Source: Candidatus Neomarinimicrobiota bacterium
Lineage (GTDB): Bacteria > Fidelibacterota > UBA2242 > B5-G15
Length of the DNA stretch: 64,000 nt
Assembly: GCA_017656425.1 (NCBI GenBank)
Contig: JACDNV010000004.1
Coordinates: 1-64,000, forward strand
Direction of reading: 5' to 3'
How positions within the stretch are numbered: position 1 is the first letter of the stretch; every line of letters starts with the position of its first letter. The notes beneath the pieces were generated by a model, which was given only the letters and a program-made list of their open reading frames with translations, made no database searches and was not told the origin of the DNA. Positions 1 through 22,086 of this stretch are shown here, one piece after another. Position numbers and translations under genes: made by a program.

Positions 1-47
1 GATTGGGGGTACCTTTCTTATTTTTATTCAAAATTTCAACAGAAAAT

Positions 48-620
48 TTAACAGATCCCAGTTGTGTTCTTATCTATAGCCACAAGTATCATATGAGACC
101 TGTAATCATCCGGGTTCAAAAAATACACATCACCTGTAGCTACCATCTCCAGTTTATACTTCATGGAAAGAGCCTGCGCTTTTCTTTCCTCGATACCACA
201 TCTTAGCTCAACAAAAAGATTCGTTTTTGGAATTACGTTAATAAGTCTTTCTATCACTCTTTCTTGATACGCGAGTACGAACAAACCCTCTCCATACCTT
301 TCAAGCAACCGAGCAATATTCCCATTTGCATCATAATGCACTTCCGTAAGAAGCCTGCACAAATTCTCATAACCCTGTTGGTTCTCCACAAGCAGCACAA
401 CCTCATCTGTATTATCCATAATAACATTTGAACCAGCAATCGGATTTATACACTCATCTTTAGCACGCTGAACAAAGTGTATAAAACCCCATATTCCATT
501 TACTTCCGTAAGAGCAAGATGAGTTTGACAAAACTCCTTTGCCCGTGCAATAAGTTCACTGGGTGAAGCAGTCCCCCTCATTTTGGAATAGGTAGAGTGA
601 ACATTAAGATGAGTAAACAT
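48..620 (-). CDS. dnaE2: DNA polymerase III alpha-type (DnaE2/ImuC-like), N-terminal PHP domain, truncated by frameshift at window edge
   Basis: The 190 visible residues are the PHP domain that opens C-family (DnaE) replicative and error-prone polymerases: a VHSTYS motif near the start, then A-SPSEL-ARAKE and LALTEVNGIWGF. The usual LTDHG metal-binding sequence reads LTEVNG, so the PHP metal site looks degenerate. Only the N-terminus lies in the window. The frame hits a TAA at 48-50, but another minus-strand frame is open from about position 73 to the left edge and reads GSVKFSVEILNKNKKG, a plausible continuation, so a 1-base indel between about 48 and 76 is likely (true mutation or sequencing error). 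It lies 23 bp downstream of the ImuB-like gene and behind lexA, which suggests the error-prone DnaE2/ImuC of an SOS mutasome. The alternative is the housekeeping dnaE; the context argues against that. Confidence 0.75.
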   Translation of the reverse strand: MFTHLNVHSTYSKMRGTASPSELIARAKEFCQTHLALTEVNGIWGFIHFVQRAKDECINPIAGSNVIMDNTDEVVLLVENQQGYENLCRLLTEVHYDANGNIARLLERYGEGLFVLAYQERVIERLINVIPKTNLFVELRCGIEERKAQALSMKYKLEMVATGDVYFLNPDDYRSHMILVAIDKNTTGIC

Positions 621-643
621 ATTCTACTTCCTTGCCCAAATCT

Positions 644-1825
644 TCAACCATACATTTCAGATGACTTTGTTTGGAAAACTTTAAGCTCAGAAGCTCTGAA
701 AATTGCTGAAAAACCGTATTTGTTTCTTATCCTGTCAACAACTATTGAAAGATTCCTATCCTTTTCAGGAAAAAAAATATTGAGCTGTCCCACATAGGGG
801 GCAAAATCCCATGCATCTATTAGAATAGACCTTATTCGATTTCGCCGATAATTTGCTCTGTGAAACAAGTCAATGCATACAGATATTACATAGCTATCAG
901 AATTTGACAAAAGCCTCCCTTTCTTCATCCCCTTAAAGCCATCAGAATAGTGAACCTCAACCTTTACACTGCGGGCAATCTGTTTCCTAATTCGGAGCTG
1001 ATATGCTACTTGTTCAGCTATACCTATGAATGCTGTCATCACACTATCTTCGTCGTTGGTATCTTCAGTTAGAACAGTCTGTTCCACTATATGCTCTTTT
1101 AAAGTCGGAGGTTTAACTGCAGAATTATCCTTACCATGGGACTCCATATAAAGCTTTCTGGAATAATTACGAAAGATAGCTTCAGAGGTCTGTCTGTCCT
1201 CTGTTATCTCCTGGATATTCTTTACTTTCTTAAGCAATAGGAAGCTTACTATTTTTTTTACATCGGGTAGAGAAACCGTGGGCAAGAAGCTGGATGCAAG
1301 AGGACTGAGAAATAGGGGTTCTTTTCCCTCCTCCACAAGATAGACATTCTCTGGTACTACAGCTGTAGAGATACAACTTACCAACTTATTTGTGCTTATC
1401 CTTATACGGCTGGACAGATTTACCTTTTCTAAAAGAGTTTTAGAAATAAGACAACCTGCGTCTACCGAACTTTTGTATATCCCATCCATTCCTGTCATGT
1501 CCACAAAAAATTGCCCATAGGAAAGTGGCTCTATTACAGGAGAGAAAGGTTTTATCATTCTGTAGATATATTCATGAATCTGAGCATACAAAGAGCGATT
1601 GAAGGGAAGAAAAATCACTCCCCTTGCAATTTTCTTTGCTGTTAATACTTTCAGTCCTGGTCTTATTCCTTCTTCCTCCGCCTCCGGAGAAGCAGACACA
1701 ACGGTACCATTCTGAGCGTTTGATGAAATAATGGCTATTGGCTTTTTACGTAGCCTTGCATCCAGCATTCTCTCTACCTGAATGCTAAAGTCTTTAACTC
1801 TTATATGAAATATCGAACGTTTCAT
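644..1825 (-). CDS. imuB: ImuB-like, catalytically inactive Y-family polymerase homologue
   Basis: At 393 residues this has the Y-family (DinB/UmuC) outline: an HIRVKDF...VER start, the LRKKPIAI segment and the SP-AEEEGIRPG finger motif. The catalytic acids are gone. The first Asp (in HVDMD-type motifs) is Arg9, and the SxDE pair is Gly104-Gln105 within SYGQFFVD. Loss of these residues is the known hallmark of ImuB, a non-catalytic scaffold that links the DnaE2/ImuC polymerase to the sliding clamp. A QLNIFF sequence at 347-352 fits the beta-clamp binding motif QLxLF and supports that role. The gene starts 3 bp after the lexA stop and is followed 23 bp later by a dnaE-type gene, so the three probably form one LexA-controlled operon. 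No imuA lies between lexA and this gene. I am sure of the family and fairly sure of the ImuB assignment. Confidence 0.8.
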   Translation of the reverse strand: MKRSIFHIRVKDFSIQVERMLDARLRKKPIAIISSNAQNGTVVSASPEAEEEGIRPGLKVLTAKKIARGVIFLPFNRSLYAQIHEYIYRMIKPFSPVIEPLSYGQFFVDMTGMDGIYKSSVDAGCLISKTLLEKVNLSSRIRISTNKLVSCISTAVVPENVYLVEEGKEPLFLSPLASSFLPTVSLPDVKKIVSFLLLKKVKNIQEITEDRQTSEAIFRNYSRKLYMESHGKDNSAVKPPTLKEHIVEQTVLTEDTNDEDSVMTAFIGIAEQVAYQLRIRKQIARSVKVEVHYSDGFKGMKKGRLLSNSDSYVISVCIDLFHRANYRRNRIRSILIDAWDFAPYVGQLNIFFPEKDRNLSIVVDRIRNKYGFSAIFRASELKVFQTKSSEMYG

Positions 1826-1828
1826 TTT

Positions 1829-2437
1829 TCATTTATATTTTCTAAAGACAAAAAGTACTACCCCAATTATTCTGAAATCATCTTCCGGTGCTACTTTTAT
1901 AATACTGTAAGCAGGATTCCTAGGATGTAGCTCTACCCCGTCTTTACTTGGATAATATCTTTTTAACGTAGCTTCTCCATTTATGAAAGCTACAACCGTC
2001 TGTCCTGGATATGCCGTGGCTCTTTTTCTTACAATGATAAAATCCCCGTCTTGAATATTATCTTCCACCATGGAATCACCTTTTACCCTAAGTACAAAGT
2101 TATCAGGATGAACATACGACAGGGGCACCTCTATATATTCCCTGTCTTCTATAGATTCAAGAGGCTTACCTGCGGATATCAAACCCAGAAGTGGCAGTCT
2201 ATAATTTTCCTCATCCTTATCCTCACTAACGTAAAGAGCCCTTTTTGCATTAAATCCACCACGTATAAGATAGCCATCTCTTTCAAGCTCCCTGACATAC
2301 CAGTTTACAGTCCCCAATGAACTAAACCCCAGTCCATTCATTATTTCAAAAAATGTCGGTGGTCTATCGTACTGTTTGATAAACCCTTTTACAAACCTTA
2401 AAAACCTTTCTTTCTTTGGCGATAATTTTCTCTTCAT
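1829..2437 (-). CDS. lexA: LexA repressor (S24 peptidase)
   Basis: The 202 residues match LexA in full. An N-terminal winged helix-turn-helix occupies about 1-70, with a PPTFFEI-NGLGFSS recognition region. The linker carries the Ala89-Gly90 self-cleavage site in LISAGKP. The C-terminal S24 domain has catalytic Ser122 in GDSMVEDNI and Lys159 in EATLKRYY. LexA represses SOS genes until RecA-stimulated self-cleavage inactivates it. It heads a minus-strand run of lexA, imuB-like and dnaE-like genes with 3 bp and 23 bp gaps, so it probably controls its own translesion-synthesis cassette. Direct and inverted repeats just upstream are candidate operators. Length and residues are normal for the family. 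Confidence 0.97.
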   Translation of the reverse strand: MKRKLSPKKERFLRFVKGFIKQYDRPPTFFEIMNGLGFSSLGTVNWYVRELERDGYLIRGGFNAKRALYVSEDKDEENYRLPLLGLISAGKPLESIEDREYIEVPLSYVHPDNFVLRVKGDSMVEDNIQDGDFIIVRKRATAYPGQTVVAFINGEATLKRYYPSKDGVELHPRNPAYSIIKVAPEDDFRIIGVVLFVFRKYK

Positions 2438-2446
2438 AATAAAACC

Positions 2447-2484
2447 CGTAAGTTTCTCGTAAGTAATATAAAAAGTTTATTACT
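2447..2484 (-). promoter_or_regulatory. Candidate LexA operator region (direct and inverted repeats)
   Basis: Immediately upstream of lexA are two copies of CGTAAGT (2447-2453 and 2458-2464), 11 bp apart, or one helical turn. They are followed by an inverted repeat AGTAATA-N9-TATTACT (2462-2468 and 2478-2484). LexA genes are normally autoregulated, so either element could be the operator. Neither matches the Gram-positive GAAC-GTTC box nor the Proteobacterial CTGT-N8-ACAG box. The assignment is inference from position. Confidence 0.4.
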
Positions 2485-21643: not shown

Positions 21644-22086
21644 TGACTTTTGTAAATACCTCCTGTAAGTTATGTTTAACCGTTTAACAAACGAAGGTAT
21701 TTGCCATAAAAATAGAGAAAGCCATCATCGAGAAACTGGAAAAGTATCTGGAAACTGCCAAAACTATAAATGATTTGCTTGATAAAAATGGCGTCATCTC
21801 TCAAAAGAGATCCTTCGGAAATCCGTAGGATCCCTATTCGGGAAAAGCTTATCGAACACTTAACTATAGCAACTGTTACAGAGAGTTTCACAAGGTCACC
21901 AAAACTAAAACCATTTTCCAAACCGACACAGCACTAAAAAATACTTTATCTGGCTTATTTATGCGTCTCAAAGAAATAGATAACAACCATCAGAGACTGG
22001 ACAAAATTATTGCTCAATTGGCTATCTATTTCAAAGGAAGGTTAAACCTAAAATTCTAATGGAAATAGGTATTTACACAAAAAATT
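21644..22086 (+). mobile_element. Internally deleted IS256-family (mutator-type) element
   Basis: Inverted ends flank the relic: TTTTGTAAATACC (21648-21660) and GGTATTTACACAAAA (22068-22082), which match apart from a 2-base gap. Inside, 21703-21825 encodes an N-terminal transposase-like piece (EKAIIEKLEKYLE, INDLLDKNG). From 21838 to 22059 a second frame gives the transposase C-terminus: YREFHKVTKTKTIFQTDTAL, MRLKEIDNN and IIAQLAIYFKGRL. These correspond to the RKVTKTKxxFPTD and QLAIxFEGRL segments of IS256-type transposases. The catalytic middle is missing. The element cannot move on its own but could be mobilised through its ends. Confidence 0.75.

Follow-up and report, generated by a model that had tools for sequence, protein, structure and literature searches.

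The ImuA-ImuB-DnaE2 mutasome of Proteobacteria and Mycobacteria is encoded by a LexA-linked operon and joins a catalytically dead, clamp-binding Y-family protein to the polymerase DnaE2. In the Pseudomonas putida cassette lexA2-imuA-imuB-dnaE2, as in the locus reported here, the mutasome operon has a LexA of its own; that cassette contains imuA and a true imuB and probably has a different operator sequence. Mutasome variants without ImuA were predicted in 2019 (Timinskas & Venclovas, PMC6511836). A 2026 classification (NAR, PMC12926913) names them DnaE2B-iPolY-RecA and recognises among them a gbDinB2-type group that is widely distributed across phyla. In these variants DnaE2 adjoins a Y-family protein that is inactive and bears clamp and RecA-NT motifs, often together with lexA, in genomes without imuA and imuB (PMC6511836; PMC12926913). 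These papers describe no experimental characterisation of the predicted ImuA-less mutasome. A comparable cassette is carried by the Desulfosarcina ovata plasmid NZ_AP021877 (L090 2330-8105) in the order lexA, DUF72, iPolY, DnaE2, with iPolY annotated as hypothetical. The catalytic acids are absent from this protein too (N, A, G and H at the four positions), the stretch is free of imuA, and the DnaE2 is 38% identical to an orthologue discussed below (L034). The plasmid cassette differs from ours by its extra DUF72 gene, its plasmid location and its long branch in the tree.

In this study, we analysed a window, that is, the whole stretch of 64,000 nucleotides, which starts at base 1 of contig C4 (JACDNV010000004.1) of the assembly GCA_017656425.1; among named relatives, the closest one found was a genome of Candidatus Neomarinimicrobiota. 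From sequence comparison we consider it likely that the locus at its start is an ImuA-less DnaE2 mutasome operon of the DnaE2B-iPolY-RecA type, broken here by an insertion sequence (IS), in which iPolY would serve as adaptor. The cassette is probably a fresh case of an already published, predicted class, and the example in the window is probably disabled by the IS. What sets it apart from the described members is its occurrence in Candidatus Neomarinimicrobiota relatives, a conserved tandem operator served by an apparently private LexA, and the IS-broken dnaE2 of the window genome. The operons of the relatives extend the predicted class to a largely uncultured phylum.

All three ORFs lie on the minus strand in the order lexA (1829..2437), Y-family ORF (644..1825, 393 aa) and DnaE-type PHP ORF (48-620). 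Between neighbouring ORFs there are 3 bp (1826-1828) and 23 bp (621-643), the tight packing already described by the sequence-only reading. Profile searches identified LexA (8.5e-43; TIGR00498, 146 bits over the cut-off), the Y-family domains IMS (1.2e-27) and IMS_C (7.1e-8), and PHP (3.4e-21). The Y-family protein, assigned as iPolY by PF00817 and PF11799, its orthologues and the tree, is the only PF00817 match in the genome.

Alignment with E. coli DinB and a solved Pol IV places R9 and K11 (codons R9 to K11, 1793..1801, minus strand) at D8 and D10 of the D-x-D metal ligands, and G104-Q105 (1511..1516, minus strand) at the catalytic pair D103/E104. R9 and G104 are invariant in all 15 rows of the alignment, in which the window protein stands beside orthologues that share 41-54% identity with it; Q105 is found in 14 rows and replaced by K in the remaining one. 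The DinBs of sister genomes keep all catalytic acids in the same alignment. Judged by this alignment, the acids of iPolY are replaced and not displaced, as the earlier reading had proposed from the residues Arg9 and Gly104-Gln105, and since R9 and G104 are invariant in the 15 orthologues, the loss of the acids is ancestral. The protein thus lacks the D-x-D and D-E acids of a DinB (Pol IV) and has, like ImuB, a Y-family core whose catalytic acids are lost. The beta-clamp-binding motif QLNIFF, also recognised before, occupies residues 347-352 (770..787, minus strand); Q347 and F351 are invariant in the 15 orthologues, and 41 aa follow the motif up to the C-terminus.

Other genomes of the same order and phylum also have lexA-iPolY-dnaE2, all three genes pointing the same way, with DnaE2 proteins of ~1005 aa that carry the PDIDxDF catalytic motif. 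In some relatives the gaps of the operon hold ORFs which, from our reading of the printed sequences, are GxxExxY-like, four-helix-bundle-like or transposase-like, and not imuA. Compared with these operons, the DnaE-like gene of the window, previously taken as the mutasome partner of the Y-family protein, is a fragment. What it retains is the PHP domain, 187 codons from the start of a DnaE2 of ~1005 aa (60..620, minus strand); a search of the assembly with a full-length orthologue (L034, 1005 aa) aligned window 60-620 with residues 1-186 at 56% identity. The orthologous proteins (~1005 aa) align unbroken past residue 187. The remainder of dnaE2 past residue 186 was not found in the 99.66% complete assembly, where the other matches belong to the replicative DnaE1 (1143 aa), the only other DnaE of the genome.

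The terminal 59 bases of contig C4 (1..59, minus strand) are the left end of a repeated element of the IS256/Mutator family, and it is within this IS end that the 48-620 ORF meets its premature stop. At five sites (C4, C15, C20, C24 and C32), each close to the end of a contig, 26 bp of the left end are identical. Longer copies, such as that on C15, contain the gene for a transposase of the Mutator family (PF00872, E 5e-31). The right-hand ends, located separately, are on C15, C16, C32, C12 and C34, with a diverged one on C26. Two left/right pairs have 8-bp target duplications in common, CCATCTTA for C20-C16 and ATTTTTTT for C24-C12, and the right flank on C15 has the same low-complexity 8 bp as the latter pair. 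The C4 flank (ACACAACT) pairs with no right-hand flank, and no right flank of the IS encodes DnaE2. By elimination C4 may join C34, which would imply a deletion of the dnaE2 remainder; the remainder could also be in an assembly gap. A frameshift at the dnaE2 end was considered and rejected: the +1 frame is open up to the contig end but unlike the orthologues, and the IS explains the end. Hence dnaE2 was probably interrupted after codon 187 by an IS256-family element, leaving the mutasome disabled in this genome, without an intact DnaE2 polymerase. The two-gene minimal mutasome suggested by the sequence-only reading is not a working pair here, and the window serves as a warning that an apparent minimal mutasome of this kind can be a truncation by a mobile element at a contig edge. 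Probably LexA and iPolY are what a recent loss has left behind, or else only some members of the population carry the insertion. In the only other searched member of the same family (G001, 86% complete) neither iPolY nor the cassette LexA found a match, so that this family may be losing the cassette or may have lost it.

The cassette LexA is the only LexA found in the window genome and has the A-G cleavage site (SAG at 88), the serine (GDSM at 120) and the lysine (ATLK at 156). Upstream of lexA, directly after the -10-like element TATATT (2465..2470, minus strand), lies the tandem sequence ACTTACGAGAAACTTACGGGT (2444..2464, minus strand), a juxtaposition common to most relatives. This tandem ACTTACGAG operator is the predicted target of the cassette LexA. 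It is unique in the window genome with up to 3 mismatches, and exactly one copy (up to 2 mismatches) occurs in 14 of 24 relatives, across which the backward control pattern gave one match in all. Wherever the context was read, the copy immediately precedes the cassette lexA, with G003 as the exception. There it precedes iPolY, iPolY-dnaE2 being on C25; a cassette-type lexA stands apart from that contig, next to a DinB-like ORF (G003:C138:36153-37282). In three relatives the cassette LexA is joined by another, different LexA (36-37% identical). No hairpin was detected in the operator DNA, and a literature search on LexA in Candidatus Neomarinimicrobiota found nothing relevant. With one operator, counted in its tandem form, in the window genome and in each of the 14 relatives, at the cassette promoter wherever the context was read, the cassette LexA looks like a private repressor of its own operon. 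The conserved private tandem operator of the cassette LexA is new here and makes the regulation of the class testable.

When the N-terminus of the window genome's RecA was compared with iPolY, its best match was at residues 356-380 (686..760, minus strand), just after the clamp motif, at the same position and with the same look as the RecA-NT motif described for the class (PMC6511836). The statistics are moderate: 7 of 2000 shuffles for the window protein and 20 of 2000 column shuffles for the 15-row alignment, in which this offset is by far the best (19.0 versus 9.9). For single sequences the match is modest, single orthologues give a weaker one, and with the window genome's RecA N-terminus as query the motif was not seen in the f7 group. 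The presence of this RecA-NT-like motif implies RecA as a third subunit, so that the minimal set would probably not be two proteins. Taken together with the operator, these features suggest how the operon would work. LexA would repress its own operon from the private tandem operator until DNA damage leads to RecA filaments, LexA self-cleavage and expression of the operon. The dead Y-family protein would then act as an adaptor that contacts the beta clamp via QLNIFF and a RecA protomer via the RecA-NT-like motif and brings in DnaE2, presumably the only subunit making DNA; error-prone synthesis would be the outcome. It is this last step that is predicted to be broken in the window genome, by the IS256-family element after codon 187.

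The survival here of LexA, its operator and an unbroken reading frame for iPolY, with no intact dnaE2, could be read differently. In a relative, G002 (L045), lexA-iPolY is likewise found without an adjacent dnaE2. We regard it as unlikely that a one-operator LexA and a conserved-dead adaptor with invariant Arg and Gly outlive the polymerase, here and possibly in G002; if they do, iPolY would have a DnaE2-independent role at the clamp or RecA. The corresponding explanation, that LexA-iPolY has a role of its own, e.g. in regulating the clamp, RecA or DnaE1, and that the loss of dnaE2 is tolerated, is rather improbable, as most relatives keep dnaE2 beside iPolY and the branch of the window iPolY (0.71), which is longer than most of its order, fits relaxed constraint.

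The sequence-only reading had attributed the locus to the ImuB pattern. Its description of a LexA-linked, ImuA-less dead Y-family protein with DnaE2 holds; the assignment to ImuB does not. The genuine ImuBs, drawn from plasmid records (L091-L093, L097), have 461-507 aa and an ImuB-C domain. The HMM built for this domain finds every left-out ImuB and no iPolY, and a search for a standalone ImuB-C in the window genome gave nothing at E <= 1, a result with no positive control inside the genome. In the tree, one clade (100/100) unites the Desulfosarcina plasmid protein with inactive PolYs from several families of the phylum, and ImuB is a separate branch (100/100). This tree holds proteobacterial ImuBs only and does not include gbDinB2; its long branches limit finer placement. 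The DnaE2 proteins of the relatives group with those of Desulfosarcina and Emticicia and not with the imuA-linked DnaE2 (SH-aLRT 98-99), which suggests a DnaE2B placement in a tree that has long branches and includes the relatives' full-length proteins, the window having a fragment only.

ImuA was sought with the NCBIfam ImuA model, since Pfam (PF00154) scores nothing on true ImuAs. Over 61 genomes the cut-off was reached by none, and as the control Caulobacter also stayed below it, the cut-off is weak proof. In the window genome the model has two matches only, one to the RecA encoded on C14 and one to a RadA-like protein of contig C2, and its matches in the relatives likewise look like RecA or RadA-like loci. 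A divergent Rhizobium ImuA is detected at 1.2e-14; therefore, a comparable ImuA should show as an extra match, although a very divergent one could be missed. These searches point to a genome without imuA, extending the earlier remark that none lies between lexA and the Y-family gene, where the gap measures 3 bp. The cassette differs from ImuA-ImuB-DnaE2 in having neither ImuA nor ImuB-C and in belonging to another Y-family clade and DnaE2 group, and it agrees with DnaE2B-iPolY-RecA in that an inactive PolY adjoins DnaE2 while both ImuA and ImuB-C are missing. Membership in ImuB is rejected on the missing domain and the separate clade. Accordingly, we give little credence to a true ImuB mutasome that lost imuA, with the window protein as ImuB orthologue in a reduced ImuB-DnaE2 pair: the operon logic (LexA, dead Y-family protein, DnaE2), the clamp motif and the dead active site would agree with it, but the absence of ImuB-C, the position of ImuB and DnaE2 in the trees and the RecA-NT-like motif speak against it.

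Finally, it is highly improbable that the DnaE fragment is no broken gene but a PHP partner that is short by nature and stands alone. Such a reading would have a parallel in the ~250-aa standalone PHP proteins near a Y-family gene in two genomes of the phylum (L051, L052), but it was rejected because the same-position orthologues run on unbroken up to ~1005 aa and because IS sequence common to four other contig ends contains the stop.

With the ImuA-less DnaE2B-iPolY-RecA type as the favoured assignment, several neighbouring arrangements were recorded. In the f11 genomes L051 (5683-8285) and L052 (6569-9054), an apparently active Y-family gene is followed first by an SSB-like gene and next by the one for the standalone PHP protein. 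G028 has an active-type PolY divergent from or close to the dead iPolY (L047 6434-7675, 8236-9432), with dnaE2 1.6 kb away. In G002 (L045 7871-9773) the next gene on the side where dnaE2 would be expected is convergent, possibly marking a second dnaE2 loss. An SRAP (HMCES/YedK-type) gene directly follows dnaE2 in L036 (4852-5541; PF02586, E 1.1e-70), and look-alikes follow dnaE2 in L041 (13751-14254), L042 (7840-8538) and L043 (166-849), L036 being the one confirmed by Pfam. As to the IS, the transposase frame of the copies on C15 (L079 1-1450) and C32 (L082) is broken near its 3' part. Both copies carry repeated units of ~20 bp (TCCGAAGGATCTCT.TTGAGA), and one CCGAAGGATCT is also present at window 21808-21818.
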